Of a DNA stretch of 58,891 bases, positions 1 through 58,891 are shown one piece after another. The notes beneath the pieces were generated by a model that made no database searches, had not been told where the DNA came from, and worked only from the letters and a program-made list of their open reading frames with translations. This DNA is from a virus: IMG/VR virus record IMGVR_UViG_3300024289_000039, positions 1 to 58,891 of that record, one strand, 5' to 3'. Positions within the stretch are counted from its first letter, which is position 1. Every line of letters begins with the position of its first letter. The position numbers and the translations under genes are program-made.

Positions 1-210
1 ATGAGGAATACCAATCTCTGGCGGGTATTCAGGCTGTGAACGATGAGCAAGCCGACGCGCCATTTTGAGTTGCTGTTCCAACCTTTTCACTTCAGCCTCC
101 AGCGCCTCTATGCGGTCGGCGGCTTCTATTGCTGTACTGTAATCATTAGTTCCATCATCAAAGGCTAGGTAACAAGAGTCACGCAGCCGCTTCACAAGAT
201 CGTCGGTCAT
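1..210 (-). CDS. DDLVKRLR-family coiled-coil small protein, cut by the left edge
   Basis: Read on the minus strand, an ATG at 208-210 opens a frame that stays open for 70 codons to the window edge, so the 3' end is missing. It starts with TDDLVKRLRD and continues through AIEAADRIEALEAEVKRLEQQ, a short predicted coiled coil. The same layout (DDLVKRLR, then AADRIE.LE) occurs at 1196-1477, 1470-1709 and 58451-58681, so this is one member of a phage-encoded paralogue family. The start overlaps the stop of the upstream gene as ATGA. Function unknown. Confidence 0.75.
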   Translation of the reverse strand, partial: MTDDLVKRLRDSCYLAFDDGTNDYSTAIEAADRIEALEAEVKRLEQQLKMARRLAHRSQPEYPPEIGIPH

Positions 211-428
211 CTTTTGTCTCCCATAGCTCTTTTTGCGATTCCGTAAGAGCATTCATCAATAAAACAACAGTCACAATTCTCACCATCGCAAGCAATTTTA
301 GCCAAAGCATCCTCTGCCACGATAACCCGCTGCTCTAGCCGCTCCAGCATTTCTGCCGCCATGACCATCAAAGACAGGTCCTCAAGGTGGTCACCTGTTC
401 CTGTTTTAAGAAGCTCAACTATGTTCAT
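207..428 (-). CDS. small protein with Cys cluster
   Basis: A 73-residue protein. The first 45 residues look helical (MLERLEQRVIVAEDALAKI). A cysteine-rich tail, CDGENCDCCFIDEC, could bind zinc but matches no family I know. A GAGGGGAG Shine-Dalgarno sequence lies just upstream of the ATG. It is coupled by ATGA to the next gene. It belongs to the overlapping small-ORF operon at the left end. Function unknown. Confidence 0.7.
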   Translation of the reverse strand: MNIVELLKTGTGDHLEDLSLMVMAAEMLERLEQRVIVAEDALAKIACDGENCDCCFIDECSYGIAKRAMGDKR

Positions 429-549
429 TTGTCTCCCCTCGCGTACATTTCAAAATGTTGCCGAACGACTACAAATAGGTCTTCTTGTTAGCCGTTTTAT
501 AGCACCCGAAAGCCTACCCAATTACACCCAATTGCGGAGGTTTCTCGCT
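429..549 (-). other. non-coding leader between small ORFs
   Basis: This 121-bp stretch is one of the few real gaps in the left-end operon. Read on the minus strand it contains two AATTGGGT repeats, then an A/T-rich TATAAAA, and ends in the strong ribosome binding site of the 207-428 gene. An internal promoter is possible, but no well-spaced -35/-10 pair is visible. Confidence 0.35.
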
Positions 550-780
550 TCACAGCATCCGCATCCATACCAATAGTGACATGGCAGTATTTGGATGCGG
601 TATTCCATTATCCCCGTCCACTACATCTGCTTGGCTTTCTAGATACTCAATGATGGCTGGCATCTGGACTTTTATTCTTTCTATTTCTTTTTGAGCAGTG
701 TGAAGCATGACCTGTAGCCTAGCTATTTCCCTCTCCTGCGCGATCAGCAACTTCTGCACCCGTGATGCTTCAGTCTCCAT
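550..780 (-). CDS. coiled-coil small protein, paralogue of 58451-58681
   Basis: The start METEASRVQ at 780 is chosen because GGAGAAGAAAG precedes it; the longer open frame reads into the upstream gene. The 76-residue product has a helical N-terminal half (IAQEREIARLQVMLHTAQKEIERI). Its C terminus (LESQADVVDGDNGIPHPN, then AMSLLVW) is closely matched by the protein at 58451-58681. Here the N-terminal DDLVKRLR motif is replaced by an unrelated helix. It overlaps the upstream gene by 11 nt. Function unknown. Confidence 0.75.
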   Translation of the reverse strand: METEASRVQKLLIAQEREIARLQVMLHTAQKEIERIKVQMPAIIEYLESQADVVDGDNGIPHPNTAMSLLVWMRML

Positions 781-1003
781 CTTTCTTCTCCAGCGCAGCG
801 CGTGCGGCTTCAACAGCAGACCCCCATTCATCAGCGTATTTAATCAAAGGTGGCCCGTTCTGCACATCAAGCAACGATTGCAGCGCCGCTTCCAGCGTCT
901 CAATGCGACTGTGCTTTTCATCCACCACACCAGCGATCCACTCAACTGCACTATCAATCCCGTCCTCTTTGATAACCGCTTCAATCGCTTCTGTAGTTTT
1001 CAT
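770..1003 (-). CDS. small protein duplicated at the right end of the window
   Basis: A 77-residue, mostly helical, acidic protein (MKTTEAIEAVIKEDG, later IETLEAALQSLLDVQNGPPL). A near-identical copy of its last 70 or so codons is found at 58674-58891, where the window ends inside the gene. The start overlaps the stop of the upstream gene as ATGA. In both locations the next gene downstream carries the QADVVDGDNGIP C terminus, so a two-gene block was duplicated. Function unknown. Confidence 0.75.
   Translation of the reverse strand: MKTTEAIEAVIKEDGIDSAVEWIAGVVDEKHSRIETLEAALQSLLDVQNGPPLIKYADEWGSAVEAARAALEKKDGD
779..990. repeat. long direct repeat, left copy
   Basis: These 212 bp recur at 58680-58891 in the same orientation with only a few differences (for example TTCT against CCCC near the start and CTGCAC against CTGAAC in the middle). 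The match continues up to the right window edge, so its full length there is unknown. It covers most of the 770-1003 gene. Confidence 0.9.
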
Positions 1004-1203
1004 TGCATCACCCCATCCATTTCTGACAGATCAACAACATACCACTTTCCACGACTGCATGGTCCGCAAGAACATGAACCAGCATCTTCTGGATCGCAAT
1101 CTTCGCCGTCTAAATACCAACCTGTAATTGAAATAAGCTCCCCATCGTTTAGAACCGCAATACGGGTTGTTCTGTTGATCGCTTCAACATACCGTTCAGT
1201 CAT
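1000..1203 (-). CDS. small Cys-containing protein
   Basis: A 67-residue protein. An N-terminal beta-like part (TRIAVLNDGELISITGWYLDG) is followed by the cysteine cluster CDPEDAGSCSCGPC and a short beta tail (KWYVVDLSEMDG). The four cysteines might coordinate a metal. GGGGAG lies seven bases before the start. It overlaps the upstream gene by 8 nt and is coupled by ATGA to the downstream one. No family recognised. Confidence 0.7.
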   Translation of the reverse strand: MTERYVEAINRTTRIAVLNDGELISITGWYLDGEDCDPEDAGSCSCGPCSRGKWYVVDLSEMDGVMQ

Positions 1204-1477
1204 CTTTCTTCTCCCCTAATGCGGCGCGGGCAAATTCCCTGATGTCGTTAATGGTTTGGTGCGGCTGGGCAACGCTGATTGGATACCATGCGTAAATGCG
1301 GGACAGCGCCTCCTCATACCGATCCGCGCGTGCTATCGCATCGCTCCAAACCTGTTGCTGTTGGGCATATGCCGCTTCCAGTTGCTCAATGCGGTCGGCG
1401 GCTTCAGAGGCAATGCTTAAGCGCAAACCTGTCTCTGGGTCTTCAGCGCGCAGCCGCTTCACAAGATCGTCAGCCAT
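1196..1477 (-). CDS. DDLVKRLR-family coiled-coil small protein
   Basis: Start MADDLVKRLR at 1477 is preceded by GGAGGG at five bases, so the upstream in-frame extension is rejected. The 93-residue product has the family's N-terminal motif, then ASEAADRIEQLEAAYAQQQQ (coiled coil) and a C-terminal IYAWYPISVAQPHQTINDI segment that other members lack. The conserved N terminus with divergent tails suggests a common docking or dimerisation element. Function unknown. Confidence 0.75.
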   Translation of the reverse strand: MADDLVKRLRAEDPETGLRLSIASEAADRIEQLEAAYAQQQQVWSDAIARADRYEEALSRIYAWYPISVAQPHQTINDIREFARAALGEKKDD

Positions 1478-1709
1478 GTCTTCCCTCCAGAACATCAATT
1501 ATTTCTTCCTTTAATTTTTCTATTTGAAGCCAAGCCTCCGTCCGTAAGACGCAATCCCTCGTGACGAAATCCTCCAAGCGGTTATTCTGAACTAGCAATT
1601 CTTCAAATTGTTTTTCCAGCTCCTCAATCCTGTCAGCAGCCTCCTCACAGCGGTACATATTGTGCTCGCTAGATTTATCGCGCAGCCATTTAACGAGATC
1701 GTCTGCCAT
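1470..1709 (-). CDS. DDLVKRLR-family coiled-coil small protein
   Basis: Start MADDLVKWLRDK at 1709, with GGGAGGGG upstream. It shares a base with the stop codon of the preceding gene (TGATG). The 79 residues run from the family motif through CEEAADRIEELEKQFEELL and are helical to the end, with a heptad-like leucine pattern. It overlaps the next gene by 8 nt. A paralogue of the products of 1-210, 1196-1477 and 58451-58681. Function unknown. Confidence 0.75.
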   Translation of the reverse strand: MADDLVKWLRDKSSEHNMYRCEEAADRIEELEKQFEELLVQNNRLEDFVTRDCVLRTEAWLQIEKLKEEIIDVLEGRHG

Positions 1710-1891
1710 CACAACCCCTCCCCTTCGACAAAATCTAGAACGATCTTGAGGCAAGCGATCCGCCCATCTCTGGCGGAAACGTCTGCTTCTTCTTTGTTGG
1801 GGTGGACGTATTCTTCTGTCCCTTTTTCATAAACATTCAGCCATACGATTCTTTTGTGTCTTAGCTTTTTCTTTTGCTTTTCATTCTTCAT
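1709..1891 (-). CDS. small basic-start hypothetical protein
   Basis: Sixty residues. The start is very basic (MKNEKQKKKLRHKR), followed by a mixed alpha/beta stretch (IVWLNVYEKGTEEYVHPNKEEADVSARDGR). GGAGAAAG lies upstream. The start lies inside the end of the 37-residue membrane protein gene 1881-1994. The strongly basic N terminus would fit nucleic acid binding, but that is only a guess. Confidence 0.65.
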   Translation of the reverse strand: MKNEKQKKKLRHKRIVWLNVYEKGTEEYVHPNKEEADVSARDGRIACLKIVLDFVEGEGL

Positions 1892-1994
1892 TTTCTTTCT
1901 CCATCTGATCTATGTATCCCATTACCACCACCGCTATGAGAAGTATAGCCGGCAAGAAAACCAAAAAGATGACCATGATCGAGAAGATGTCCAT
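1881..1994 (-). CDS. 37-residue single-span membrane microprotein
   Basis: A short frame starting MDIFSIMVIFLVFLPAILL. A hydrophobic segment covers roughly residues 3-26 and is followed by a charged tail (YIDQMEKENEE). The start codon shares a base with the stop of the upstream gene (TGATG), AAGGG lies eight bases before it, and the 3' end overlaps the next gene by 11 nt. It fills what would otherwise be the only gap between the 1709-1891 and 1994-2305 genes. Probably an inner-membrane peptide; role unknown. Confidence 0.65.
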   Translation of the reverse strand: MDIFSIMVIFLVFLPAILLIAVVVMGYIDQMEKENEE

Positions 1995-2305
1995 CAGATC
2001 AACCCTTCAAGAACCATCTGTTTGACTTTCATGCAAACAGCCGAATTGTTCCTGTCTTTGACTTCCTCGTAGATTTTGTGCAATGCTTGGACCGCATCGC
2101 TGGGCGGCGGGGCATTGCTCGCGCGCCCGAATGTGAAATTGTCGTCAGCTCTGACGTCCTGATTGCGCCAAGACCAGCACTCGCCTTTTTCGCCGAAGCA
2201 CACCCACACAAGGTCGTACTCTGGTCCATAGTCGATCAGTATCTGCGCCATAGCTTTGCCTTTGGGCGTCTGCATGGGGATCGGTGGATTGAGCTGGAGA
2301 ATCAT
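1994..2305 (-). CDS. conserved phage protein, unknown
   Basis: Start MILQLNPPIP at 2305 is chosen because its ATG shares a base with the stop of the primase-helicase gene (TGATG). The longer open frame runs back through that gene and is a shadow. The 103-residue product has a beta-rich middle (ILIDYGPEYDLVWVCF, then GECWSWRNQDVRADDN) and a helical C-terminal half. I have an impression of similar 'PIP..TPKG...DYGPE' proteins in other tailed phages but cannot name the family. Confidence 0.7.
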   Translation of the reverse strand: MILQLNPPIPMQTPKGKAMAQILIDYGPEYDLVWVCFGEKGECWSWRNQDVRADDNFTFGRASNAPPPSDAVQALHKIYEEVKDRNNSAVCMKVKQMVLEGLI

Positions 2306-4581
2306 CACATCCTCGTTTCGAATATGTCGTTTGGTTGCTTCAGCATTGTGCGCATGTCCTCGAACATTGCGCTCTTTCTTTCCTTTACTTCGTCCGGAGC
2401 TGCTTCCGCCGGTCGCACGAGGCTTGCAACGTTTTTGATCGCCTTGAGGGTGTGCTTTGACTTCAGCTGCTCGTATGCCTTTTTGTTCATTGCTGCGAGC
2501 TGAAGTCTTCCTCCGATCAGGAACCTTTCGTCGTACCATATGGCGCCGCACTCCTTCATTGCCTTGCGCAACTCGAGGTCTGAATCGTAGACCTTGCCCT
2601 GCACAGCCTGCCGAACCCACCCGACGATATCTTTCATCGCGAGCACAACCGGCTCGTCGCGCCGATTGAGTGCCTCAGCGAGCTCCGCAGCCTCTTGCTG
2701 GCCTTCTGTGCGCGATGCGACGATCAGCTCTTTCTTTCGCTCGGTCATCGGAGCAGGCTGTCCTTTTTGGACATACTCTTTCCAGTTCTCGGCCCAATGG
2801 CGGATGATGTTCAGTCCACCGCTCTTGAGCCAATTGTGGAAATGTTCGAACTTCTCGCGCGGCCATTTGTCCTCAGTCACCTCGGGATAGAACCAGCGGC
2901 GATCGTCCTCTTCAATACGTAGCGCGCGCATCGAGTTGGAGCATGCGAACACATGGCACCAGTTCTCGATGGTGTAGGACCGCTGGTACTTTTCGTTCAC
3001 CTCGATCTCACGATCGGTGATGGCCGATTTCAGTTTGTTGTAGGCTTTCCAGCTGTGGCCAGAATAGATCTCGTTCACCACGCACAGCCGTTTGTTGGCG
3101 AGCCATCCGTTGAATTCAGACTGCACGATCTGACTCTCAGTCGGGTATCCAACGTTCTGCGTCCCAACCAGCGGCGCGAGGATCGAGCTGCCGAGCGTCG
3201 TCTTGCCGACACCTTGGCGCTCACTGACCAGAAGCAATCCATACTCCATGCGGATCTCTTGACGAGCGATCAACGTCGCAGCCCAGCGCAACACCTCATG
3301 GCGCTCCTCCGCATTCGGGAACATGTATTCCATGAAATCGAGGAAAGGCTGCGGATTGCCCGGCAGAGGCTTGATGTGGCTGGGGGTGTGGAGGTTGATG
3401 GCGGACGTTGTGTTGTCCGTCACAATCTTTCCACGGATGTCCGGGCGGTAGCACAACTTGGTCGAGCGACCAGTGTATGCTTTCACAATCAGGTGTGAGG
3501 TTTGATTGGTGTGCGAGAAACTGGCCAGCATCTTGTTCATGATCTGCTCGGAGCGAATTATCTCCGGCATCTCAATGCACACGAATAGATCCGCTTCCTC
3601 AACATACGACCACATGTCCTTGAAGTTCTTGCGGAGGACCGTTGTGGGCTTGCCCTTGGGGTTGGGGATCTGGTCCGTGGCCCATGTCGCAGGATGCAAG
3701 CACGAACGGAAGCTCGGTCCGACGTAATACTTTTGCCCCTCAACCTTCTTGAACATGCCTTTCGGGAATGGGTCTGCGAGGTCGAAGCTCGTCGGCCATT
3801 CATTGGTGAACTGAACATGGAACGTCGGGATGCGCAGATGGAAAGCAATGGCCGGAACAGCCGACACACCCGGTGCGTCATTGTCCGAGACAATGTATGC
3901 GCGCTTCACACCTGCCTTCTGAAGTATGGACCAATCAGTGCGGTAAGGCGACAACGCTCCACCAATCCATCCCAGATGCGCCGCGTGCGAAAGCTCATCT
4001 CCCCAAGGATGATCGGCCAGCATCGCCTTCATCTCCGGCGTCGCAGCCTCGACCATCTCGCGCATGGCACGTGCAGCCTTCGCTCCTTCGTGGATGAAGA
4101 CTGTTGCATTGTTCTTCAATTGCTCCATGCCCCATAGGGGCAATGGTCCTTCAGGCTCCATCTTGCGCCAAAGACCGTCGTCCCAGTAGGTATAGGGGAT
4201 GTAACTCTTTTCCCCTTTGCGTTCCATCCGGAGTTGGAGCATGATGATCTCGTCATTCATGTTCCTGAAAATGAAGACATCCTTTTCCTTGGCCTTTTCG
4301 ACTTCTTCAGGCAAGTCGCGTAGGCGGTCAAGCGTCCGCATCTGCGGCCATACAGCACTCTGACAATCGAGCTCGATGGCGAGCTTTTCCTTTTCTGTCG
4401 GTGCGTATAGGTCGGGTGCCTTCACAGTGCCATCGGTGTTGAGGGTGATGATGGCGATGTCTTCCCAATACTGGCCGCGACTTTCTTTCACGACAGCTGT
4501 CCGCAGGGATCTTGGCTCTGCGCCGATGCGCTTCAGATATGCCGCTACTGCAGGGATTTCTGCGAGTGACTTGACTTTCAT
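2305..4581 (-). CDS. bifunctional primase-helicase (TOPRIM-like plus SF3-like helicase)
   Basis: The 758-residue product has a TOPRIM-like region around residues 150-260 (IHEGAKAA, then IVSDNDAPG). An SF3/D5-type ATPase follows: Walker A SERQGVGKTT near 453-461, a Walker B-like LCVVNEI, a sensor-1-like FACSN and an arginine-finger-like EEDDRRWFYP. This resembles the DUF5906-type phage helicase-primases, which unwind DNA ahead of the polymerase and lay primers. Start MKVKSLAEI at 4581 follows the upstream stop as TAAAATG; an upstream in-frame ATG would intrude into that gene. It lies in the same operon as the DnaE-type polymerase and the exonuclease, so it is part of the replisome. Confidence 0.85.
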   Translation of the reverse strand: MKVKSLAEIPAVAAYLKRIGAEPRSLRTAVVKESRGQYWEDIAIITLNTDGTVKAPDLYAPTEKEKLAIELDCQSAVWPQMRTLDRLRDLPEEVEKAKEKDVFIFRNMNDEIIMLQLRMERKGEKSYIPYTYWDDGLWRKMEPEGPLPLWGMEQLKNNATVFIHEGAKAARAMREMVEAATPEMKAMLADHPWGDELSHAAHLGWIGGALSPYRTDWSILQKAGVKRAYIVSDNDAPGVSAVPAIAFHLRIPTFHVQFTNEWPTSFDLADPFPKGMFKKVEGQKYYVGPSFRSCLHPATWATDQIPNPKGKPTTVLRKNFKDMWSYVEEADLFVCIEMPEIIRSEQIMNKMLASFSHTNQTSHLIVKAYTGRSTKLCYRPDIRGKIVTDNTTSAINLHTPSHIKPLPGNPQPFLDFMEYMFPNAEERHEVLRWAATLIARQEIRMEYGLLLVSERQGVGKTTLGSSILAPLVGTQNVGYPTESQIVQSEFNGWLANKRLCVVNEIYSGHSWKAYNKLKSAITDREIEVNEKYQRSYTIENWCHVFACSNSMRALRIEEDDRRWFYPEVTEDKWPREKFEHFHNWLKSGGLNIIRHWAENWKEYVQKGQPAPMTERKKELIVASRTEGQQEAAELAEALNRRDEPVVLAMKDIVGWVRQAVQGKVYDSDLELRKAMKECGAIWYDERFLIGGRLQLAAMNKKAYEQLKSKHTLKAIKNVASLVRPAEAAPDEVKERKSAMFEDMRTMLKQPNDIFETRM

Positions 4582-11455: not shown

Positions 11456-12244
11456 TCACATGGCCGGTTCGTTTTGGCCTTGGTCTTCATCAGCGCCAAT
11501 GTCGCCACGCACCTCACCACGCTTCAGAGAATCGCGGAACGAGATGGCTTCATTGTAATATTCGCGCCAATTGTCGCCGATGTCTTGAAGACGATCACCA
11601 CGCTCGATCTTCCAACCAGCCCAATCGCCTTCCGCATTGCTCTCGTCCACAACCGAAAGATTGTAAACTCGATAGAAAAGCGGCGGAGTAAACGTCGACC
11701 CGTCCGCACGCTGAACCTTTTCAGAGGTTGCCAGCGTCAGCCACCGCCGAGCTTTTTTGAGCTGGGTGGAAGCCATCGGAAGGAAACACCTGCGGCCGCC
11801 AGCCGACATATTGAGTCCGAAGAACTGGGCGGTCTCCGCAATATAATTACCGTCCTTTGTCGTTGGGCGGTTCTTTTCGTCAGGCTTGCAGGATTCAAGA
11901 ATCGAGGCGTCTTCATGAATCTTGACCAACCCCTTGCCAGAGCTGCGAGGAGCCCACTCCAGATACTGCTTGATGTAGTGGACCGGCAGGAACACCAACG
12001 GTGCTTCGAAAATCTCTTGCGTGCCAACATCGCAGATATCACCGACTTTTGCGCCGTTGATGTATTCAGGCTTCTTGGGTTGAACCTGTGGCGACAAAGC
12101 CTGCAATAGCGTGATGCGGGGAATGATCAAGTCACGAGTCGTGACGTTCTCCAACCCCTCTCCGGCCATTGATTCGAAAGCTGAGTCGATTTCGACGAGA
12201 GCTGTGCCTTTGCTTTGGACAGCGACTTCTTGCTTCTTTGCCAT
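11456..12244 (-). CDS. conserved phage protein, first gene of the replication operon
   Basis: A 262-residue protein: low-complexity N terminus, then LIIPRITLLQALSPQVQ, INGAKVGDICDVGT, a beta-rich central domain (LVFLPVHYIKQYLEWAP, LYNLSVVDE-like strands near 200) and an acidic C terminus (GDIGADEDQGQNEP). An acidic tail after a beta-rich core is typical of ssDNA-binding proteins, and the operon otherwise lacks an SSB. This is inference, not homology. AGGAG lies nine bases before the ATG, just after the divergent control region. Confidence 0.65.
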   Translation of the reverse strand: MAKKQEVAVQSKGTALVEIDSAFESMAGEGLENVTTRDLIIPRITLLQALSPQVQPKKPEYINGAKVGDICDVGTQEIFEAPLVFLPVHYIKQYLEWAPRSSGKGLVKIHEDASILESCKPDEKNRPTTKDGNYIAETAQFFGLNMSAGGRRCFLPMASTQLKKARRWLTLATSEKVQRADGSTFTPPLFYRVYNLSVVDESNAEGDWAGWKIERGDRLQDIGDNWREYYNEAISFRDSLKRGEVRGDIGADEDQGQNEPAM

Positions 12245-12413
12245 GATATTTATACTCCTGTCTGCTTAGGTCTGGGGATCCAGATCCGTTTTTGAGACGA
12301 TTCGAAGTATGCCTCGGACTGAATAAAAAAGCACGATATTTTTGAGATTTTCTGTAAAATTGTCGTAAGTTGTTGTTTTTAATCGTAAATAAAAATGTCA
12401 ATTTGAGCAATTA
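12245..12413 (-). promoter_or_regulatory. divergent control region, leftward side
   Basis: This A/T-rich stretch separates the leftward replication operon from the rightward early genes, so it must hold the leftward promoter. On the minus strand TTTACAG and AAAAATATCG are visible, but their spacing does not make a clear sigma-70 promoter. A GATTC (GANTC-type) site lies at 12299-12303, embedded in CGATTCGAAG. The low GC and central position would also suit a replication origin; I see no iterons. Confidence 0.4.
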
Positions 12414-12481
12414 TTTTGTTTTCTTTTTTGGCGGAATGGCGTTTAATACTCTTACCGGCCGATTCGCCGGGTAGATGGAGA
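12414..12481 (+). promoter_or_regulatory. early promoter-like leader, copy 1
   Basis: A T-rich tract (TTTTGTTTTCTTTTTT) leads to TGGCGGAA at 12429-12436 and TTTAATAC at 12442-12449. After that comes an ACCGGC hairpin closing on GCCGGGT with GATTC in its loop, ending in GATGGAGA. The 45 nt from 12437 to 12481 recur at 14349-14393 with one mismatch. A shorter version sharing TGGCGGAA-N5-TTTAAT lies at 13695-13713. The duplication immediately upstream of separate transcription units, each following a terminator or control region, marks it as a promoter plus 5' UTR. Confidence 0.65.
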
Positions 12482-12487
12482 ACAGAG

Positions 12488-12712
12488 ATGATGACCAACC
12501 TGAACAACTGGCTCGACACCGTCCCCGGACTCAAGACCGAAAAGGGTGCCATGGCTCGTCTCGCGAAAGTCATGGACATGATCGAGGAAAACGGCTCCAA
12601 GTGGATGATCTACCGCAAGCCGGACAACACCTACGTCCCTCTGGTCATCGCCTCCAGCAAAGATTGGGCGGTCGGAGCCTACGCTCACAACGGTGTCTGC
12701 GTCACGAACTGA
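12488..12712 (+). CDS. small early protein, unknown
   Basis: A 74-residue protein starting MMTNLNNWLD seven bases after GGAG. It looks like a compact alpha/beta domain: a helix (GAMARLAKVMDMIEENG), then strands (KWMIYRKPDNTYVPLVIAS and WAVGAYAHNGVCVTN). It is the first gene behind promoter-like copy 1 and is followed directly by a hairpin, so it may be highly expressed alone. Early phage genes of this type often alter host functions; no family recognised. Confidence 0.7.
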   Translation: MMTNLNNWLDTVPGLKTEKGAMARLAKVMDMIEENGSKWMIYRKPDNTYVPLVIASSKDWAVGAYAHNGVCVTN

Positions 12713-14319: not shown

Positions 14320-14324
14320 CAATT

Positions 14325-14393
14325 TTCTTGTTTTCTTTTTTCTCGTTCTGGCGTTTAATACTTTTACCGGCCGATTCGCCGGGTAGATGGAGA
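14325..14393 (+). promoter_or_regulatory. early promoter-like leader, copy 2
   Basis: TTGTTTTCTTTTTT, then TGGCGTTTAATAC at 14349-14361, the CCGGC/GCCGG hairpin with GATTC in its loop (14373-14377) and GATGGAGA. It is 44 of 45 identical to copy 1 across 14349-14393. The TGGCGGAA box 13 bases upstream of TTTAAT in copy 1 is not conserved here (TCTCGTTC), so the conserved core is the -10-like region plus the transcribed hairpin. It lies between a terminator and the 14401 gene. Confidence 0.65.
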
Positions 14394-14400
14394 TCCTAGA

Positions 14401-15692: not shown

Positions 15693-15807
15693 CATTTTCC
15701 ATTTCCATTCCTCTCCTGAATTCCACTCACTCTAGAGGAAAATAGAAGAAAGAAAGTAATAGAAGAAGAGTAAGTGAAATCGGTCCATGGACTGGAAATG
15801 GAAAATG
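15693..15807 (+). promoter_or_regulatory. conserved 115-nt inverted-repeat leader of the SNF2 helicase gene
   Basis: The element begins with CATTTTCCATTTCCA (15693-15707) and ends with its exact reverse complement TGGAAATGGAAAATG (15793-15807), 85 nt apart. A pyrimidine-rich left half faces a purine-rich right half, so a long imperfect hairpin could form in RNA. A second copy, also 115 nt with the same 85-nt spacing and about 86 percent identical by hand, lies on the minus strand at 57684-57798 before the VRR-NUC gene. The right arm contains two ATGs, so folding would bury translation starts. It could instead be a protein-binding palindrome or promoter. Confidence 0.7.
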
Positions 15808-15825
15808 CTGCGGGGGCAAAAATGA
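15805..15825 (+). CDS. possible six-codon leader peptide before the helicase
   Basis: The ATG at the end of the inverted-repeat arm opens the frame MLRGQK, which stops in TGA overlapping the helicase ATG at 15822 (ATGA). In the minus-strand copy of the leader the equivalent ATG is the actual start of the nuclease gene. Translation of this mini-ORF could couple ribosomes to the helicase start. It may equally be chance. Confidence 0.35.
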   Translation: MLRGQK

Positions 15826-30868: not shown

Positions 30869-31339
30869 CTACTTTGTTATGTTGAATGTTAGATTGGCGT
30901 GATCTGGATAGCTTATCAGAACCTCGCCTTCAGGGCATTTGTATTTGATGCGTGCGAGGAGCGTTGCGCGCCCAACTGCGACTTTCTCTGGATTGTCGAT
31001 TGTTATCGCATATCCAAATTTGTCAACCTTTTCATTCGCCGGACCGGAGAACGTAGCGATGGAGGGATTTGCTTTGTGGACGATGTAGCGAGAATCGCGC
31101 ACCTCGAGCCGGAACTGTTCGACGGAGCAATCGTCGCGAATTTTGCGACGTGCTGCGACAACCGAGAAATCTCCGCTAGCAGGACCATCTGTGATTGTGA
31201 AATGTTCCGGAGACCATTCCAATATTGGTTTGCGGAACAACCCGAGCTTGTCGGTTGCAGTGTAGCCTCCACCGATCATCGCAAAAACTGCGGTGACTGC
31301 GCCGACAGATTTTGTTATGCGGTCGATGTCGAGGCTCAA
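30869..31339 (-). CDS. membrane-anchored hypothetical protein in the lysis region
   Basis: A 156-residue protein with one N-terminal hydrophobic segment (about 10-27, SVGAVTAVFAMIGGGYTA) and a beta-rich remainder (DFSVVAARRKIRDDCSVEQF, GRATLLARIKYKCPEGEVLI). The two Cys might form a disulfide, suggesting a periplasmic domain. It lies between the adhesin cassette and the endolysin, overlapping the upstream gene by ATGA. It could be a lysis regulator or superinfection factor; no family recognised. Confidence 0.6.
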   Translation of the reverse strand: MSLDIDRITKSVGAVTAVFAMIGGGYTATDKLGLFRKPILEWSPEHFTITDGPASGDFSVVAARRKIRDDCSVEQFRLEVRDSRYIVHKANPSIATFSGPANEKVDKFGYAITIDNPEKVAVGRATLLARIKYKCPEGEVLISYPDHANLTFNITK

Positions 31340-32592
31340 GAGATGTAAATCCTTCCGTTGGACCCTGCAGTCGCAGCAGTGGAAGAGCCTGTCCCGGCTC
31401 CGGAACGATTGGCGTCTCCGCTGTTGCCGGGGGTCGTTCCGCTGCCTGCAGTTAGCGTGCCACTGGAGATGTAAGTCGCATTAACTCTTCCAGAACCACC
31501 GCCACCGCCCGACACTTGGTCGTCGCTCTGGTAAATGCCGGAGCCGCCGCCGAAATATCCGCCGCCGCCACCGCCGCCCATTGTTGAGGTCGGAGTAAGC
31601 GATCCGCCTTGCAGTGCACTCCCGTTTACAGAAGAACCGATTGCTGCATCTCCGGAACCTGCGCCGCCTGCAGTTTGAGTTCCCCCGCCACCGCCGCCGC
31701 CGTTACCGCCTCCAGCAACGCCGTTCGTGCCGCCGCCTGCACCACCATTTTCGTCGCCTCCAAAACGGCTGTTGCCACCACCACCGCCGCCGCCAGCGAT
31801 CAAAACGGAGTTAGCCTGAGTGACGCTGTTAACGAATATGCCGGACAAACCACCGCCGCCGCCGCAGTTCCATTGGCGGTCGGAGTAGTTCGTTCCAGAA
31901 CCGCCGCCGCCAAACGCCGTTCCGCTTTCAAAAATTGAAGTTGTCGTGAACAAACCGCCTTGGCCGACTCTCAAAACGAAAGTCGTTCCGGAAGTCGCAG
32001 AAAAAGTTCCGCCTGCGTAACCGCCGCCACCGCCGAATGCATTGGCAGTCGAAAATGCATTGGTCGCACCTCGTCCACCGCCAGCGCCCCATATTTTGAC
32101 AGAAGCAGAGAAATTGGTTAGCGGGACGATCGTCCAATCTCCGTAAGAAGACAAGGCAAGCGGGCCATCAGTGTCAAGATCCCAAGTTGTTTTGCCAGAG
32201 ACTGCGGGCGAAATCGTGAAAGCTCTCGTCGGTGCACTCGGCGTGACGCTGTTGCTGGCAGCACTGGAAGGACCGGTGCCAGCAGAGTTCGTAGCTCTAA
32301 CAGTAAACGTGTAAGCTGTTCCGTTTGTTAAGCCTGTAACTGTAATAGGAGAAGAAGCTCCAGAAGCGGTTATTCCTCCAGGAGAAGATGTGACGGTGTA
32401 AGAAGTAATCGCAGAGCTGCCAGTATAAGTTGGCGCTGTGAATGTAACAGTCGCTTGTGTGCTGGCAGCAGTCGCAACTCCAATGGTCGGAGCGCCGGGG
32501 AAAATTGGCCAGTTGCTTCCTTGGACATTGCGCTTAACTTTTTTAAGCGTCCATATTCCATTTGCATTCGTGGGCGAAGGAAACTGTGCCAT
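31336..32592 (-). CDS. FN3 plus poly-glycine adhesin 1
   Basis: Start MAQFPSPTNANG at 32592; the longer frame has no ribosome binding site. Of its 418 residues, the first 35 are an N-terminal segment shared with the adhesins at 32958 and 34111 (ending SNWPIFPGAPTIG). A fibronectin type III domain follows (about 36-125, ITSYTVTSSPGGITASGASS), then a specific beta domain, and then about 230 residues with many GGGGG runs (IAGGGGGGGNSRFGGDENGG). Glycine-rich motifs separated by variable loops are the design of T2 gp38-type adhesins. Likely receptor-binding. Confidence 0.7.
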   Translation of the reverse strand: MAQFPSPTNANGIWTLKKVKRNVQGSNWPIFPGAPTIGVATAASTQATVTFTAPTYTGSSAITSYTVTSSPGGITASGASSPITVTGLTNGTAYTFTVRATNSAGTGPSSAASNSVTPSAPTRAFTISPAVSGKTTWDLDTDGPLALSSYGDWTIVPLTNFSASVKIWGAGGGRGATNAFSTANAFGGGGGYAGGTFSATSGTTFVLRVGQGGLFTTTSIFESGTAFGGGGSGTNYSDRQWNCGGGGGLSGIFVNSVTQANSVLIAGGGGGGGNSRFGGDENGGAGGGTNGVAGGGNGGGGGGGTQTAGGAGSGDAAIGSSVNGSALQGGSLTPTSTMGGGGGGGYFGGGSGIYQSDDQVSGGGGGSGRVNATYISSGTLTAGSGTTPGNSGDANRSGAGTGSSTAATAGSNGRIYIS

Positions 32593-32594
32593 CA

Positions 32595-32948
32595 TTATCT
32601 CCAAGAAAGAGTTTCTTCATCCCACTGATAAAATTGTCCATCGTTTGGTTTGGGGACAGGAGGATCCCAACGACAGAACTCTTCATTAAGAATCCAAGAC
32701 GGGTAAGGTTTGGGAGAAATGAACGCATCTCTTTCTGCATCGTAGTAGTGTCCGATGCCCGCGTAATTTTTCCTTATTTTAGAATTATAGCTCGTTTGCT
32801 TCCACATTGTCCCTGGAAACAGAGACTGGCAGAAAGCTATTCCTTTTTCTTCTGATTCAATGCCATTCTCGTCCTTCAACTCATTGTCGTGGACGACGAT
32901 CACCTGAAGGACAAAGTTGTTTTCATCTAGCTGTGCAAAATGCGCCAT
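32595..32948 (-). CDS. conserved phage tail-associated small protein
   Basis: A 117-residue protein of a family very common in aquatic phages: MAHFAQLDENNFVLQVIVV at the start, then KGIAFCQSLFPGTMWKQTSY, RKNYAGIGHYYD, and a PKPYPSWILNEEFCRWDPP block with a terminal WDEETLSW. It is usually found next to fibre or structural genes and may be a virion or fibre-assembly component. It sits between adhesins 1 and 2 of the cassette. Confidence 0.75.
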   Translation of the reverse strand: MAHFAQLDENNFVLQVIVVHDNELKDENGIESEEKGIAFCQSLFPGTMWKQTSYNSKIRKNYAGIGHYYDAERDAFISPKPYPSWILNEEFCRWDPPVPKPNDGQFYQWDEETLSWR

Positions 32949-32957
32949 TGTCTTTCC

Positions 32958-34100
32958 TCAGAAAGTAATAGAACCAGAGCCGGTCCATCTGTAGATGCGG
33001 TAGCCGCCGGAAACGGTGTAACTTGGCGAGCCTGTCGTGGAAACTGCAGCAGAGAATGTGTCTGGGTAACGAATAATTACAACACCAGAGCCGCCATTTC
33101 CGCCGCTGCGGTCGTCGTTGCCGCCGCCGCCACCGCCGCCAGTATTTGCTGTTCCATTTCCGCCCGGATCACCGCCTGCTCCACCGCCGCCTGCGCCGCC
33201 CGGTCCGCCTCCACCTCCACTCAAACCTTCGCCACCGCCACCGCCGCCAGCGTATGTCACGCTGCTTCCAGAAATGCTGGAAGCTGTTCCTGCACCACCG
33301 GCTCTTCCAGAAGTAGAGTTTGCACCTGCAGCAGATGCGCCGCCACCACCGCCGCCCGCAGATTCGCCAGTGTTACTGCCACCGGCATTGCCTTGACCTG
33401 ATGTCCCAGCAGCACCGGAGGCATTGTCACAGCCACCGCCACCTCCGGATCCGCCGACCGCTGCCGCGACGCTACCTTGGCGAGAAGCCCCTCGACCGCC
33501 GCCTATGGAGGTTATCGTGCTGAAAACAGAATTTGATCCATTTGATGAAGCAGATGCTGGGCTGTAAATGCCTGCATTTCCGCCGCCACCGACCGTCACT
33601 GTATAAACAGTACTTCCGACAACAGCCAACCCAGTTGCGGTCCGGAAACCACCGGCTCCGCCGCCACCGGCTCGGGTCGCGCCGCCACCGCCACCGCCTG
33701 CGACAACGAGGTATTCGACCGAAGTTGGGCCAGTGTATGCGCTCGGCGTAACGCTATTGCTCGCAGCACTGGAAGGGCCAGTTCCTTGAGTGTTGGTTGC
33801 TGCTACTGTGAAAGTGTAAGCTGTTCCGTTTGTCAGTCCTGTCACAGTGATAGGCGAGGATGCTCCTGAAGCGGTTATTCCTCCGGGCGAAGAAGTAACG
33901 GTGTAAGAAGTTATCGCTGTCCCGCCGGTGCTTGCTGGGGCAGTGAATGTTACGGTCGCTTGTGCATTTCCGCCGGTTGCAGTTCCTATTGTCGGAGCAC
34001 TCGGTCTTGCAGGCCAATTAGATCCGGCGACAGCACGATATACATCTTGCTGATTCCATACATCAGAGTTTGGACCTGCTTGTGTCGGGAACTGCGCCAT
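32958..34100 (-). CDS. FN3 plus poly-glycine adhesin 2
   Basis: A 380-residue paralogue of the product of 31336-32592, with the same N-terminal segment (ending GSNWPARPSAPTIG), an FN3 domain (ITSYTVTSSPGGITASGASS identical over that stretch) and a poly-glycine domain (VVAGGGGGGATRAGGGGAGG, GGGGGGEGLSGGGGGPGG). The C terminus (SGVVIIRYPDTFSAAVSTTG, then GYRIYRWTGSGSITF) is the closing strand pattern of phage glycine-rich adhesins. Probably an alternative receptor-binding protein. Confidence 0.72.
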   Translation of the reverse strand: MAQFPTQAGPNSDVWNQQDVYRAVAGSNWPARPSAPTIGTATGGNAQATVTFTAPASTGGTAITSYTVTSSPGGITASGASSPITVTGLTNGTAYTFTVAATNTQGTGPSSAASNSVTPSAYTGPTSVEYLVVAGGGGGGATRAGGGGAGGFRTATGLAVVGSTVYTVTVGGGGNAGIYSPASASSNGSNSVFSTITSIGGGRGASRQGSVAAAVGGSGGGGGCDNASGAAGTSGQGNAGGSNTGESAGGGGGGASAAGANSTSGRAGGAGTASSISGSSVTYAGGGGGGEGLSGGGGGPGGAGGGGAGGDPGGNGTANTGGGGGGGNDDRSGGNGGSGVVIIRYPDTFSAAVSTTGSPSYTVSGGYRIYRWTGSGSITF

Positions 34101-34110
34101 TTAATTTCCT

Positions 34111-35370
34111 TTAAGAAGAAGCGTAAATGACGATGTAAGCAGCGCCGCCCTTGCCACCGCCAGCACCCGCGCCATTCTGAGAGCCACCGCCGCCACCGCC
34201 ACCACCGTAGTAGCTTCCAGTGCCAAAGAACCTTATGCCACCGCCTGCGCCACCACCGCCTGAATAGGTCGAATTTGAGCCACCATTGGCATTCCCGACA
34301 CTAGCCCCAGCAGTCGTTGAAGAGTATCCGTTGCCACCTGTGCCCCCGGACACACCATTGGCAGAGAAAGCAGGACTAAGATTTCCGCCATTAAATGTGG
34401 AAAGCGTAGTGCTGACGGTGCTGTTTCCACCATTTTCGCCCGCTGTGTTCCCGTAAGCACTGCCTGAAACCCAAGCGCCACCGCCACCACCACCAGCGGT
34501 TGAAACGGTGCTGTTTGAACCTGCAGTGCCTGTCGTTCCCCCGCTTCCGTCCGGATACCTTATATTTCCCGAACCGCCATTTCCACCGGCAGCAGATCCA
34601 TAAGTCCCCTGAGCTCCGCCAGATCCGCCCGGAGAAACAGTTGTAAGGTTCGAGGGGTGGCAAGGTCCATTTTGACCGCCATTAAGCGAGAACAGCAGTG
34701 TCCCGCCGGAATTGGTCGAACGAACTTCTAGATTCGGTTGGTAAAGGCCCGGATTGTTGGTTGTCGAAGAACCAGCAGGATTTGGTATCGAATAGTACAA
34801 AGTTGTCACGCCGCCCGGTATTGAAACTTCGTAGCCATTCAACTGAACAGCGCCGCCACCGCCGCCACCGCCACCGTCGTCGTTTCCGCCCCCGCCTCCG
34901 GTGCCACCCGGCGCGACGCCGAAAATGGCAACTTTAGAATAGCCGGAAACGCTAACTGTCCCGCTCGTTGCGCTGTCGCCGCCAGTGTTGAGGATTCTTG
35001 TCCAAGAAACAGCAGTCGGGGTGACGGAGTTGCTTGCGTTGCTTTCTGGTCCGGTGCCTTGAGCATTCGTAGCTTTGACAGTGAATGTGTAAGGTGTTCC
35101 TGCTGTCAACCCGGATACAGTTATTGGCGAGCTCGCTCCTGTTGCAGTTATTCCTCCAGGAGAAGAAGTAACTGTATAAGAAGTAATAGCAGAACTCCCG
35201 CTGCTCGCAGGTGCAGTAAAAGCCACGGAGGCAGAAGCTGATCCAGCCGTTGCTGTTCCAATGGTAGGCTTTCCTGGGAATTGCGGCCAGTTTGTGCCCA
35301 TGACTGCGTCACGGACATCATTGACTCCCCAGCGGCCATATGCACTTGTCGGAGACGGGAAATCAGCCAT
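34111..35370 (-). CDS. FN3 plus poly-glycine adhesin 3
   Basis: A 419-residue third paralogue: MADFPSPTSAYGRWGVNDVR at the N terminus, NWPQFPGKPTIG, FN3 with ITSYTVTSSPGGITATGASS, then a beta domain (VSVSGYSKVAIFGVAPGG) and glycine-rich runs (GNDDGGGGGGGGAVQLNGYE) with a closing GGAAYIVIYASS. The DNA of the FN3 part is closely similar to the other two copies, offering homologous recombination sites. TAATG coupling to the upstream gene. Confidence 0.72.
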   Translation of the reverse strand: MADFPSPTSAYGRWGVNDVRDAVMGTNWPQFPGKPTIGTATAGSASASVAFTAPASSGSSAITSYTVTSSPGGITATGASSPITVSGLTAGTPYTFTVKATNAQGTGPESNASNSVTPTAVSWTRILNTGGDSATSGTVSVSGYSKVAIFGVAPGGTGGGGGNDDGGGGGGGGAVQLNGYEVSIPGGVTTLYYSIPNPAGSSTTNNPGLYQPNLEVRSTNSGGTLLFSLNGGQNGPCHPSNLTTVSPGGSGGAQGTYGSAAGGNGGSGNIRYPDGSGGTTGTAGSNSTVSTAGGGGGGAWVSGSAYGNTAGENGGNSTVSTTLSTFNGGNLSPAFSANGVSGGTGGNGYSSTTAGASVGNANGGSNSTYSGGGGAGGGIRFFGTGSYYGGGGGGGGSQNGAGAGGGKGGAAYIVIYASS

Positions 35371-35723
35371 TAGGAGATCTGCTCGTAGGAGGCCACAGCT
35401 TCGAGTCGGCTATTTGCGCTGGCAGTTATGCGCAACGTATCACCTTCTTCGAGATAGATGTATTTGTTGAGCAAGTCCAAAGTCGCACCAGCAGGAACCG
35501 TCATAAGATAGGCGATTCTATATGCAACACTGGAGCGGAAAATGTCGACATTCACTGTCGCATTGTTCGTTCCGTCGATGTTCGCGACCATCAATGAATC
35601 GACCTTTAGAACTTGGTTGCTGCCGGAGCTATTGGTGATGATCGCAGTCGGCGTCGTCGTCACGACAAGAACACCTGTCTTGCCGTAGATTGCAGTGACG
35701 TTGACAATATTAGGCGCAGCCAT
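35370..35723 (-). CDS. small beta-rich structural protein, aquatic-phage type
   Basis: A 117-residue protein: MAAPNIVNVTAIYGKTGVLV, a Thr-rich strand, then SLMVANIDGTNNATVNVDIF and YIYLEEGDTLRITASANSRL. This all-beta pattern is common in marine and freshwater phage genomes, where it is taken as a minor structural protein. It precedes adhesin 3 with TAATG coupling. Exact virion place unknown. Confidence 0.7.
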   Translation of the reverse strand: MAAPNIVNVTAIYGKTGVLVVTTTPTAIITNSSGSNQVLKVDSLMVANIDGTNNATVNVDIFRSSVAYRIAYLMTVPAGATLDLLNKYIYLEEGDTLRITASANSRLEAVASYEQIS

Positions 35724-35726
35724 GAT

Positions 35727-36020
35727 TTACTCCATCATCCCGAGTTGCTCTTGGAGATCAACGTCTGCGATTTCTTCAGGCGTCATATCTCTTATTTCCC
35801 AAACGTCTTTGACAATGTCTCCGTCCCACTGATACGTCGGACCACTAACGACAACCTCGTATTTCCCTGCAGCTTCTTTGCGAGAAACTCGGACGAACTT
35901 TGCAAAATCTGGTCCGGGATTCTCCGGATCGATGTGGGGAAATGCTCTGCGGAAATTGGTGCCCATGATCGGATGATCGACAGGCTGGCCATTCTCGAGG
36001 CGAATGAACATGTCGCTCAT
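35727..36020 (-). CDS. conserved small protein near tail fibres
   Basis: Start MSDMFIRLEN at 36020 overlaps the stop of the upstream gene (ATGA), so the longer open frame is rejected. The 97-residue product has the pattern FIRLENGQPVDHPIMGTNFR, AFPHIDPENPGPDFAKFVRV and YQWDGDIVKDVWEIRDMTPE. I know this pattern from fibre-assembly or tail-associated proteins in aquatic phages. Likely a fibre chaperone or structural accessory. Confidence 0.7.
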   Translation of the reverse strand: MSDMFIRLENGQPVDHPIMGTNFRRAFPHIDPENPGPDFAKFVRVSRKEAAGKYEVVVSGPTYQWDGDIVKDVWEIRDMTPEEIADVDLQEQLGMME

Positions 36021-57245: not shown

Positions 57246-57686
57246 CTATTTGCTTCTCAATCGGCAGATCTCCTCGAGCCTAGCAATGTACGACGAGAGC
57301 GAGCTGGTGAATTGTTTCGGATTGACCGAGATCTCTGCCAGATTCTCTATCTCAAAACCAGCAGACCAATGCTTGATTCCGTCACCCGGAGCAGCAAACA
57401 AATGCTCAGGAACTGTCCCCTGACCAACCCCAAAAAGGAATACAGAGGGAACATCAAACTCCGCCAGCCTGCGGTGCCAGTTTATCTGAGGAGGTCTGAT
57501 CTCTGACGGATACAGGATGCCATCCTTCAAATCAGCAACTTTAAGCTCAATCGGAATTATTCTCCGACCAACGATAATCTGTATGTCCGGTATGCCCATG
57601 TTCGAACCGAGCCGAGGTTCATATGACTCAATCCAACCAACCCAATTCTGCCGGATCCATTTCTTCAGATGTGTCGTCTCACGCAT
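57246..57686 (-). CDS. VRR-NUC / PD-(D/E)XK nuclease
   Basis: A 146-residue endonuclease fold. GIPDIQIIVGRRIIPIELK gives the metal-binding D and ExK, with the VRR-NUC hallmark IRPPQINWHRRLAE after it. VRR-NUC proteins cut branched DNA and frequently partner a SNF2 helicase in phages. Here the helicase gene is 16 kb into the window on the other strand, but the two share a leader. The ATG at 57686 is the last three bases of that leader's inverted-repeat arm. It is separate from the terminase operon by about 60 bp. Confidence 0.8.
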   Translation of the reverse strand: MRETTHLKKWIRQNWVGWIESYEPRLGSNMGIPDIQIIVGRRIIPIELKVADLKDGILYPSEIRPPQINWHRRLAEFDVPSVFLFGVGQGTVPEHLFAAPGDGIKHWSAGFEIENLAEISVNPKQFTSSLSSYIARLEEICRLRSK

Positions 57687-58083: not shown

Positions 58084-58188
58084 TCATCCCAGTTTCTTGG
58101 AGCATCCGAACAACGCTCCGATCATCCCCAGCACAATGATCACGATCCTTGCTCTGATTATCGTCATGCATATCAATCTCGTAATCAT
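58084..58188 (-). CDS. 34-residue lipoprotein-like peptide
   Basis: MITRLICMTIIRARIVIIVL, then GMIGALFGC and SKKLG. The hydrophobic core ends in L-F-G-C, compatible with a lipobox, leaving only a six-residue mature tail. The start overlaps the stop of the zinc-binding gene by ATGA. If lipidated it would be one of the smallest such phage peptides; it could also be simply a single-span peptide. Confidence 0.5.
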   Translation of the reverse strand: MITRLICMTIIRARIVIIVLGMIGALFGCSKKLG

Positions 58189-58454
58189 AAAGCATCTTTC
58201 TTTCCGGTTCGTCCGAGAGACATGTCATAACATTTTAGGCACATAGTTTTAGACCCATTACGGAGATGCTGTCCTTTCAAGACGCAAATCTCTCCGCAAG
58301 TGCAGACACATTCAAACATCGCACTCTTGCGCCGACCAGCCCCATCGCTCTTGATGTAGCGGATCACGCTCAACTGGCCATAGGTCTTGCCTGTTTCGTC
58401 AATGAACCCTACCTGTTGGCGCAAATGGAACGGGAAATAACCTTTGTCGTTCAT
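58185..58454 (-). CDS. small zinc-binding protein related to phage HNH/AP2 N-terminal modules
   Basis: An 89-residue protein with YGQLSVIRYI, then FECVCTCGEICVLKGQHLRN, and CLKCYDMSLGR. This follows the YGRLTVI...W.C.CDCG...V...L..G.T.SCGC pattern I know from the DNA-binding halves of phage AP2/HNH homing endonucleases and their free-standing relatives. Four or more Cys may bind one zinc. No HNH nuclease motif is present, so it is likely a small DNA-binding protein. ATGA overlaps at both ends. Confidence 0.7.
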   Translation of the reverse strand: MNDKGYFPFHLRQQVGFIDETGKTYGQLSVIRYIKSDGAGRRKSAMFECVCTCGEICVLKGQHLRNGSKTMCLKCYDMSLGRTGKKDAL

Positions 58455-58681
58455 TTCCCCTCCAGTGCGTGCTTCGTCCAGACCAGAAGCGCCATCGCCC
58501 TATTAGGCGCAGGTATGCCGTTGTCGCCATCAACCACATCAGCTTGATCCTCTAAGTATTCGAGGATTGCAGGGAACAGACTCTCCAGTTTCTCAATGCG
58601 GTCGGCGGCGGCATCACGCAGCGTCCACAGTTGTTCTTGCGAGAGAGCATCTTTACGCAGTCGCTTCACAAGATCATCCAT
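58451..58681 (-). CDS. DDLVKRLR-family coiled-coil small protein
   Basis: Start MDDLVKRLRKDAL at 58681. The 76-residue product has the family motif, then RDAAADRIEKLESLFPAILE and a C-terminal LEDQADVVDGDNGIPAPN. It therefore joins the N-terminal type of 1196-1477 with the C-terminal type of 550-780, evidence for shuffling inside this family. Function unknown. Confidence 0.75.
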   Translation of the reverse strand: MDDLVKRLRKDALSQEQLWTLRDAAADRIEKLESLFPAILEYLEDQADVVDGDNGIPAPNRAMALLVWTKHALEGK

Positions 58682-58891
58682 CTTTCCCCTCCAGCGCAGC
58701 GCGTGCGGCTTCAACAGCAGACCCCCATTCATCAGCGTATTTAATCAAAGGTGGCCCGTTCTGAACATCAAGCAACGATTGCAGCGCCGCTTCCAGCGTC
58801 TCAATGCGACTGTGCTTTTCATCCACCACACCAGCGATCCACTCAACTGCACTATCAATCCCGTCCTCTTTGATAACCGCTTCAATCGCTT
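58674..58891 (-). CDS. paralogue of 770-1003, cut by the right edge
   Basis: The frame ending at 58674 gives a C-terminal stretch that matches the 770-1003 product almost completely (AIEAVIKEDG through AARAALE), with a divergent last few residues (GKDG instead of KKDGD). Its 5' end lies beyond the window. It overlaps the downstream gene start by 8 nt. Function unknown. Confidence 0.75.
   Translation of the reverse strand, partial: AIEAVIKEDGIDSAVEWIAGVVDEKHSRIETLEAALQSLLDVQNGPPLIKYADEWGSAVEAARAALEGKDG
58680..58891. repeat. long direct repeat, right copy, reaching the window edge
   Basis: Near-identical to 779-990. Because there are base differences, and the flanking gene (58451-58681 against 550-780) is only partly similar, this is a true duplicated gene rather than terminal redundancy of one sequence. 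Joining base 58891 to base 1 does not restore the expected reading frame. Confidence 0.9.

Follow-up and report, generated by a model that had tools for sequence, protein, structure and literature searches.

Mosaic arrangements of small accessory genes have been described in several phage groups. In lambdoid phages, mosaic joints lie at short conserved boundary or linker sequences, and the ea22-type genes encode mosaic small proteins. In T4-type phages, PeSL elements reportedly lie between exchanged small genes, each consisting of an intergenic early promoter and a stem-loop terminator. The passages of PMC10684548 on domain mosaicism describe unrelated phage proteins that share a fragment, with recent shuffling at high identity, and expect more mosaicism among proteins of unknown function and accessory proteins. 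The part of PMC4503421 that deals with cyanophage S-PM2 describes an ORFanage region, in which clustered small orphan genes were lost together in one block. Here we analysed a virus record of 58,891 bp (IMG/VR record IMGVR_UViG_3300024289_000039; the whole stretch is hereafter called the window), in which an array of small genes lies between the primase and the terminase genes. We consider it probable that this array is an accessory locus joined by conserved sequences (seams), that its modules are exchanged at these coding seams, and that the second array end seen in the window is the DNA of a co-occurring phage.

Viral contigs were scanned with two patterns: the tail pattern was found in 22 stretches and the head pattern in at least 120. 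As the proteins were picked by the head pattern, the frequencies given below are conditional on the head, and the counts are minima rather than a census. Among the matches listed, with same-record duplicates included, the set holds 200 gene matches, 138 distinct proteins and 129 loci (L numbers are our handles). All of the 131 complete proteins follow one plan: a start seam (S1; MxDDLVKRLR), a variable region (V1), a middle seam (S2; AADRIExLE) and a second variable region (V2), the end of which often resembles ARxALEGKDD. The design goes beyond chance, because it recurs in 129 loci. The consensus is roughly GGaGgggaaagATGActGAtGATCTTGTGAAGCGGCTGCG for S1 and GCcGCCGACCGCATcGAGgAgCTGGAg for S2. 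Most array genes encode 65–95 amino acids (aa), with modules of about 10–50 aa, and they form an operon-like string. The Shine-Dalgarno site of S1 lies inside the last codons of the upstream gene, and the start codon overlaps the upstream stop. Among the 122 distinct genes with at least 200 nucleotides (nt) upstream, a frame ends nearby in 119, the overlap with the upstream stop is 8 nt in 57 and 4 nt in 33, and a Shine-Dalgarno-like site is found in 115. Neighbouring family genes on the same strand abut or overlap in 50 of 71 pairs, duplicate loci being kept in this count.

The window itself displays this plan. An earlier note, made from the letters of the sequence, had pointed to a DDLVKRLR head combined with AADRIExLE and to a tail, QADVVDGDNGIP. 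The former, in the form DDLVK[RW]LR...AADRIExLE, was borne out on the minus strand in the genes at 1–210, 1196–1477, 1470–1709 and 58451–58681, and the latter in 550–780 and 58451–58681, so that the last gene has both head and tail. Outside these genes, a six-frame scan of the whole window revealed neither another DDLVK head nor another QADVVD tail. Two DNA repeat families, D8 and D10, were found independently and match the protein motifs.

The shuffling of heads and tails is strongly supported, and the suggestion that recombination mixes them is supported, by the sequence comparisons: the same V1 occurs on different tails, the same tails occur on different heads, module-sized matches link otherwise unrelated contigs, and close relatives differ by loss. 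When the 131 proteins were clustered, their V1s formed 102 groups at 60% identity and their V2s formed 58 groups at 50% identity, with at least two V2 clusters for 13 of the V1 clusters and at least two V1 clusters for 7 of the V2 clusters; the identity limits were chosen arbitrarily, and the seam has caused over-merging in the largest V2 cluster (61 proteins). Identical V1s on differing tails are exemplified by EVKDWWREPGRTAEQ (L110, L119, L155 and L226), DFDPHNMHEWEAVDL (L130 and L221) and KGVMCGDDPIVDE (L174 and L211), while the DVVDGDNGIP tail is carried on more than 10 different heads, including DDLV heads, the METEASR head and others. The window genes behave likewise. A V1 similar to that of 1196–1477 is found on another tail in L006 and L007, and its tail on another V1 in L113 and L105; for 1470–1709, a similar tail lies under another V1 in L236 and a similar V1 on another tail in L007.

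Whole-locus comparison of 18 chosen pairs showed that some have hardly any DNA in common beyond a single module bounded by seams, the total being 107 nt for L174/L211 (the V1), 133 nt for L160/L233, 171 nt for L132/L167, 262 nt for L155/L226 and 265 nt for L237/L239. Related-phage pairs among the 18 are L099/L101, L187/L210 and L236/L119. The flanks of L099 and L101 are 90–95% identical on both sides, and within the array their V1 is common and their tail is different. L083 and L113 have in common a 630-nt block, which ends at S2 and S1. The ends of shared segments were then counted over 102 array regions, with 26 duplicate, near-clone or chimera-suspect loci, the window and 5 clone-like pairs removed. 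Ungapped matches of at least 90% identity covering at least 25 nt of variable DNA numbered 78. Of their 148 internal ends (8 edge ends were excluded), 100 lie in seams and 48 in variable DNA, whereas the seams, broadly drawn, account for 45% of the array length (nominal p 1.6e-8, a value that overstates the case, as the loci are not independent and seams extend any match reaching them).

Loss was also found among related phages. A clean deletion has removed both array genes from L044, whose identity to L007 is 97.2% on one side of it and 98.8% on the other; the left break falls within S1, behind GATCTTGTG, and 15 codons stay as a remnant. The family is present (E ≤ 0.01) in three of the 46 loci that have a related terminase and 2.3 kb or more of upstream sequence, namely L006, L007 and L009, of which L006 and L007 are near-identical to each other; some of the 43 family-negative loci may have an array further off. 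Related phages thus do not carry one fixed set, in agreement with the variability that the earlier note had expected. The loss in L044 and the 43 of 46 related loci in which no family gene was found would also suit a non-adaptive explanation, according to which the seams are repeats that slip and recombine, as repeats generally promote rearrangement, and the products have little function. We regard this as distinctly unlikely, given that frames, overlaps and Shine-Dalgarno sites are retained in nearly all genes and that the ratio of nonsynonymous to synonymous substitution (dN/dS) of the tail is about 0.09. For the core of the tail, 16 DNA versions gave a pooled synonymous difference (pS) of 0.706, a nonsynonymous difference (pN) of 0.101 and a median dN/dS of 0.088 (64 usable of 120 pairs), with synonymous sites near saturation. 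On these values, this one common tail is under purifying selection.

The seams are conserved at the DNA level, as examined in 102 genes, each taken from a different V1 cluster. The top codons in S1 are GAT for D (0.96), CTT for L (0.72), GTG for V (0.89), AAG for K (0.93), CGG for R (0.84) and CTG for the last L (0.80), and those in S2 are GCC for the two A residues (0.69 and 0.87), GAC for D (0.93), CGC for R (0.92) and GAG for E (0.74). Codon homozygosity at the positions of GAT, GTG, AAG and CGG in S1 and of GCC (0.87), GAC and CGC in S2 is 0.72–0.92 against a background of 0.23–0.50. Of 2,000 runs simulated with background codon use, 0–4 attained the observed homozygosity at each position tested other than the first D of S1 and the last E of S2. 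The retrieval pattern admitted all synonyms of the head residues, exceptions such as AGN-type serine not arising here. Genome-wide codon usage is not the explanation, because the two seams differ in their Arg codon (CGG in S1, CGC in S2), and Leu is CTT and then CTG within S1. In contrast, the invariant tail residues have a mean codon homozygosity of 0.48 over the 16 DNA versions, some positions being high, in a set that is smaller and was sampled differently from the seam set. The codon data indicate that the DNA, and not only the peptide, is kept in the seams.

This conservation might serve messenger RNA (mRNA) or translation, through pairing of S1 with S2 or optimised initiation at S1, with shuffling as a by-product. 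The ribosome-binding site and the start do lie in S1, and for 53 of 100 genes the prediction shows S1–S2 pairing with 4 or more pairs, as compared with 13–24% after synonymous recoding of the seams of each gene separately. When one random recoding was shared by all genes, however, 14 of 400 recodings reached the observed value, a borderline result; moreover, shuffling of V1 leaves the folding energy unchanged (mean z −0.01), and S2 lies well inside the gene. An mRNA need as the main cause is unlikely in our judgement.

We infer that the combinations were made by recombination at the seams. One accessory locus of a tailed phage would then be an operon-like string of genes built from interchangeable pieces. 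As the seams are near-identical DNA in every gene and phage and stand in the same frame, homologous or annealing recombination would be possible at any seam, on a substrate of about 25–45 nt. An exchange at a seam would create a gene that is new, in frame and equipped with a functional ribosome-binding site, and might also add or remove a whole gene, or swap V1 or V2.

Like the limits attached above to the clustering and to the p value, several points weigh against exchange at seams. The recombination events are deduced from mosaics and were not observed, near-clones such as L129/L151 remain in the end test, and 48 of the 148 ends lie in variable parts, so other junctions must exist there. Recent spread, initiation or the structure of the mRNA could instead account for the codon conservation of the seams. 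Among the window genes scanned, none was identified as a recombinase, and neither of the predicted structures of 1196–1477 and 58451–58681 matched a PDB fold at E 0.001. A bolder proposal, which we put forward as somewhat doubtful, is that a pair of coding seams, in frame and preserved at the DNA level, enables co-infecting and otherwise unrelated phages to build new small proteins with two variable regions from a shared environmental pool of modules, each junction bringing its own ribosome-binding site. Recombination would thus build up a repertoire of binding proteins, and no dedicated site-specific recombinase would take part.

The position of the array in the genome also required revision. 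The earlier note had placed it at both genome ends, a claim that is contradicted and reflects an artefact of assembly and permutation: the window is a circularly permuted contig, the ends of which form one locus in the primase–terminase interval. Contig L083 corresponds to the window from 14581 down to 776 (13,806 nt), differing only at 786, 787 and 863, the very positions at which the two copies of a 215-nt direct repeat (Table 1) mismatch, and it runs on through one repeat copy into 58676 with 100% identity for about 5 kb. Because L083 joins both arms through a single copy, the alignment makes the window ends one locus in a genome of about 57,901 bp. The right end of the window is the equivalent of base 990 (863 + 127), and another record, L004, stops at the same base; such an end would fit a de Bruijn graph break (k = 127) past the last distinguishing base. 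It is scarcely credible that a single linear genome holds two copies of the array, one per end, as the contig displays it in its assembled form. The connection in L083, the single locus of the relatives and the end inside the repeat, at a base that fits the k = 127 break and recurs in L004, all speak against this.

Two versions of the array, A and B, are represented in the window. Bases 1–775 are 100% identical in L113 (match to 1–1405) and L236 (match to 1–967), and blastn between L113 and the window found no match outside the array; L113 and L083, a contig of phage A, have 668 nt in common overall. The two arrays part at 1405, beyond which L113 has a different head and a putatively RusA-like gene. 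Judging from these matches, 1–775 is probably array DNA of a co-occurring second phage joined on by the assembler. It belongs to a second phage or a recombinant, and represents an alternative version, not additional paralogues at a second site. The four small paralogues of the earlier note are real as proteins, but they probably derive from two co-occurring phages rather than one, because 1–775 matches the array of the second phage. A genuine recombinant version of phage A, instead of an assembly chimera, would agree with the fact that each of the four possible combinations of a left with a right arm occurs, in L083 (A–A), L113 (B–B), L105 (B–A) and the window (A–B), and natural recombination in precisely such a segment is the apparent habit of the family. 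We nevertheless think it unlikely. The window holds the right arm of A as well, and the identical stretch 864–1405 exceeds the usual short-read length, so that assemblers may pair the arms arbitrarily and the pairing in any single contig is uncertain. The synteny of the relatives favours the A–A pairing.

Table 1. Positions of the array features in the window
Feature	Position	Strand	Remarks
MTDDLVKRLRDSCYL...AADRIEALEAEVKRLEQQLKMARR... array gene	1..210	-	array B; truncated at the contig start; length in L113 and L236, 74 aa
MNIVELLKTGTGDHLED... small gene, 73 aa	207..428	-	array B; without DDLV head; homologue in L104
METEASRVQ head + PAIIEYLESQADVVDGDNGIP tail	550..780	-	array B
MKTTEAIEAV... 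gene, 77 aa	770..1003	-	ends ARAALEKKDGD; copy common to arrays A and B
215-nt direct repeat, copy 1	776..990	.	equals 58677–58891 with 3 mismatches; contig-end artefact
MTERYVEAINRTTRIAVLNDGELISITGWYLDGEDCD... gene, 67 aa	1000..1203	-	common to arrays A and B
MADDLVKRLRAEDPETGLRLSIASEAADRIEQLEAAYAQ...ARAALGEKKDD array gene, 93 aa	1196..1477	-	
Middle seam S2 (AADRIEQLEA) of gene 1196–1477	1374..1405	-	arrays A and B diverge at 1405
Start seam S1 of gene 1196–1477 (Shine-Dalgarno, overlapping start, DDLVKRLR)	1449..1488	-	family D8
MADDLVKWLRDKSSEHNMYRCEEAADRIEELEKQFEELLVQNNRLEDF... array gene, 79 aa	1470..1709	-	
Zinc-ribbon-like small protein (CVCTCGE...CLKC)	58185..58454	-	last array A gene; 4-nt overlap with neighbour
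MDDLVKRLRKDALSQEQLWTLRDAAADRIEKLESLFPAILEYLEDQADVVDGDNGIP... array gene, 76 aa	58451..58681	-	array A
215-nt direct repeat, copy 2	58677..58891	.	contig ends inside; L004 ends at same base

The array proper comprises 1–1709 plus 58185–58681. Of the interval 1–2305 originally taken as the array, the remainder, 1709–2302, holds three unrelated small genes. From the primase side, array A consists of a 103-aa gene, a gene for a 37-aa membrane-like peptide, a 60-aa gene and 1470–1709 (DDLVKWLR), followed by 1196–1477 (DDLVKRLR), 1000–1203, 770–1003, 58451–58681 and 58185–58454. Array B runs from L113 5999–6313 through the same two middle genes as in A to 550–780, 207–428 and 1–210; in L236 a further six DDLV genes follow, for a total of seven in succession, and then a methyltransferase-like gene (named by eye). 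Further S1 copies lie at 182–221, 1681–1720 and 58656–58695. Zinc-ribbon-like small proteins (CxCG...CxxC) occur within the arrays of two phages, at 58185–58454 of the window and at 7501–7722 of L009; they resemble, as we presume, the DNA-binding N-terminal parts of homing endonucleases.

As for the products, AlphaFold2 predicted three helices for 1196–1477 (mean predicted local distance difference test score, pLDDT, 83.5; predicted template modelling score, pTM, 0.51); for 58451–58681 the prediction was helical as well, with a small hairpin formed at DVVDGDNGIP (mean pLDDT 85.5, pTM 0.54). The net charge has a median of −5 and is negative in 118 of 131 proteins. The array proteins had no match above the cut-off in Pfam or NCBIfam, and no family library placed them above its curated cut-off in a known housekeeping family. 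PADLOC-DB, a library of defence and not of counter-defence, gave one weak match (0.0029). In PHROGs, the best value was 5e-4 for the array proteins of the window; 28 family members matched 4 PHROGs, one member each (best 4e-7), and 10 tail proteins matched none. Against isolate phages, blast of the array DNA found 2 records, and tblastn of single short proteins found 3, 0 and 2 records, all weak.

Phage accessory regions of such a kind often hold counter-defence genes, and an anti-host or anti-defence role, as the earlier note proposed, is plausible in view of the accessory position, the variability and the small acidic helical proteins. It is possible, if well short of established, that the genes are specific counter-defence or host-takeover factors, an explanation compatible with exchange at seams. 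The accessory location, the turnover and the small acidic helical character of the proteins agree with it, whereas the single weak PADLOC-DB match and the lack of a fold match do not. We tentatively propose that these small acidic helical products bind varied targets of the host or of rival elements during infection, and that they are maintained as a changeable repertoire.

The head pattern was found in at least 120 viral stretches, as compared with 24 exact matches in a far larger collection of genome contigs. Fourteen of the 24 were inspected, and the full head was present in five, four of them metagenome-assembled genomes (MAGs): a Roseivivax isolate (L243), Opitutae MAGs (L252 and L257), a beta MAG (L263) and a Beijerinckiaceae MAG (L265). 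Matches were found in 2 of 295 genomes of the Roseivivax family, one of them being the L243 isolate. L263 (G017 contig 224), binned as a 'beta proteobacterium' MAG, carries five family matches in tandem, and is likely a phage contig binned with its host. By these counts, the array family is mostly phage-borne.

The long genes of the window lie mostly on the minus strand, and they include genes for a DNA polymerase III alpha subunit, an exonuclease, a Thy1-type thymidylate synthase and a DUF5906 primase (2305–4581). The gene order is the DUF5906 primase, the small-gene array and, at the other contig end, the small gene 57246–57686 (weak PHROG helicase match), TerS and TerL (55144–56715). The primase, small genes and TerS or TerL are contiguous in the relatives L006, L007, L009 and L044. 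Roseobacter phage CRP-901 is a cultured relative, with 45% identity to the window in the terminase; its linear record stops beside the terminase and so offers no array region to compare. A 116-nt element occurs at 15693–15808 and, in inverted orientation, at 57683–57798 (86% alike), directly upstream of two opposite-strand genes, those of an SNF2-type helicase and of 57246–57686. Copies are also found in L006, L007, L009, L044, L085, L086 and L088, and the element is probably a duplicated promoter or regulatory element. Other observations are an 81-nt direct repeat in the early region (12408–12488 and 14320–14400, 86% alike), glycine-rich repeats in successive large genes at 31336–36967 with a 261-nt unit present three times (66–77% alike), and a strong match of 11456–12244 to Pfam PF23977 (gp34-like, with a name taken from phage Pam3).

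In most cases the accessory genes of phages are regarded as orphans without relation to one another, and here they are often permutations of a limited set of parts. Their recognisable DNA seams provide a handle for finding, classifying and testing such genes. In this case the DNA of the joint, and not the protein alone, appears to be conserved, and one can test directly whether phages maintain joints that favour recombination and so accelerate the innovation of proteins. At the same time, shared array segments can lead metagenome assemblers to fuse different phages.

Among the known systems, diversity-generating retroelements have a reverse transcriptase, a template repeat and adenine-directed mutation; the variation of the array is replacement of whole modules. 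Integron gene cassettes have attC sites and an integron integrase; Rfam gave no match in the window, L236, L113 or L007, and no search aimed at attC was made. The array proteins, unlike ea22-type genes, match no Pfam family above the cut-off. The array resembles the T4-type PeSL cassettes in having repeated conserved sequences among small accessory genes. The homology role ascribed to PeSL elements may have a counterpart in the DNA-level conservation of the seams and the enrichment of mosaic ends in them. The array differs from PeSL cassettes in that its seams are coding, a second seam lies inside each gene, and genes overlap by 8 or 4 nt (90 of 122); in place of an intergenic promoter and terminator, promoter-like and terminator-like sites occur in the array near the shuffled level (sigma-70 consensus only). 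Shared heads, tails or seams are not described for the open reading frames of the S-PM2 ORFanage in the relevant part of PMC4503421. Searches of open-licence PMC papers found no description of the array family or of dual coding seams, and the motif string was absent too. As in the domain mosaicism set out in those passages of PMC10684548, non-homologous array proteins share a fragment of high identity. The array fragments, above all V1, are often below the 50-aa minimum given there, and the array is further distinguished by its short proteins, its repeated multi-gene arrangement and the conserved DNA at its joints. It is an undescribed accessory gene family, probably built by recombination, and a variant of known phage mosaicism.

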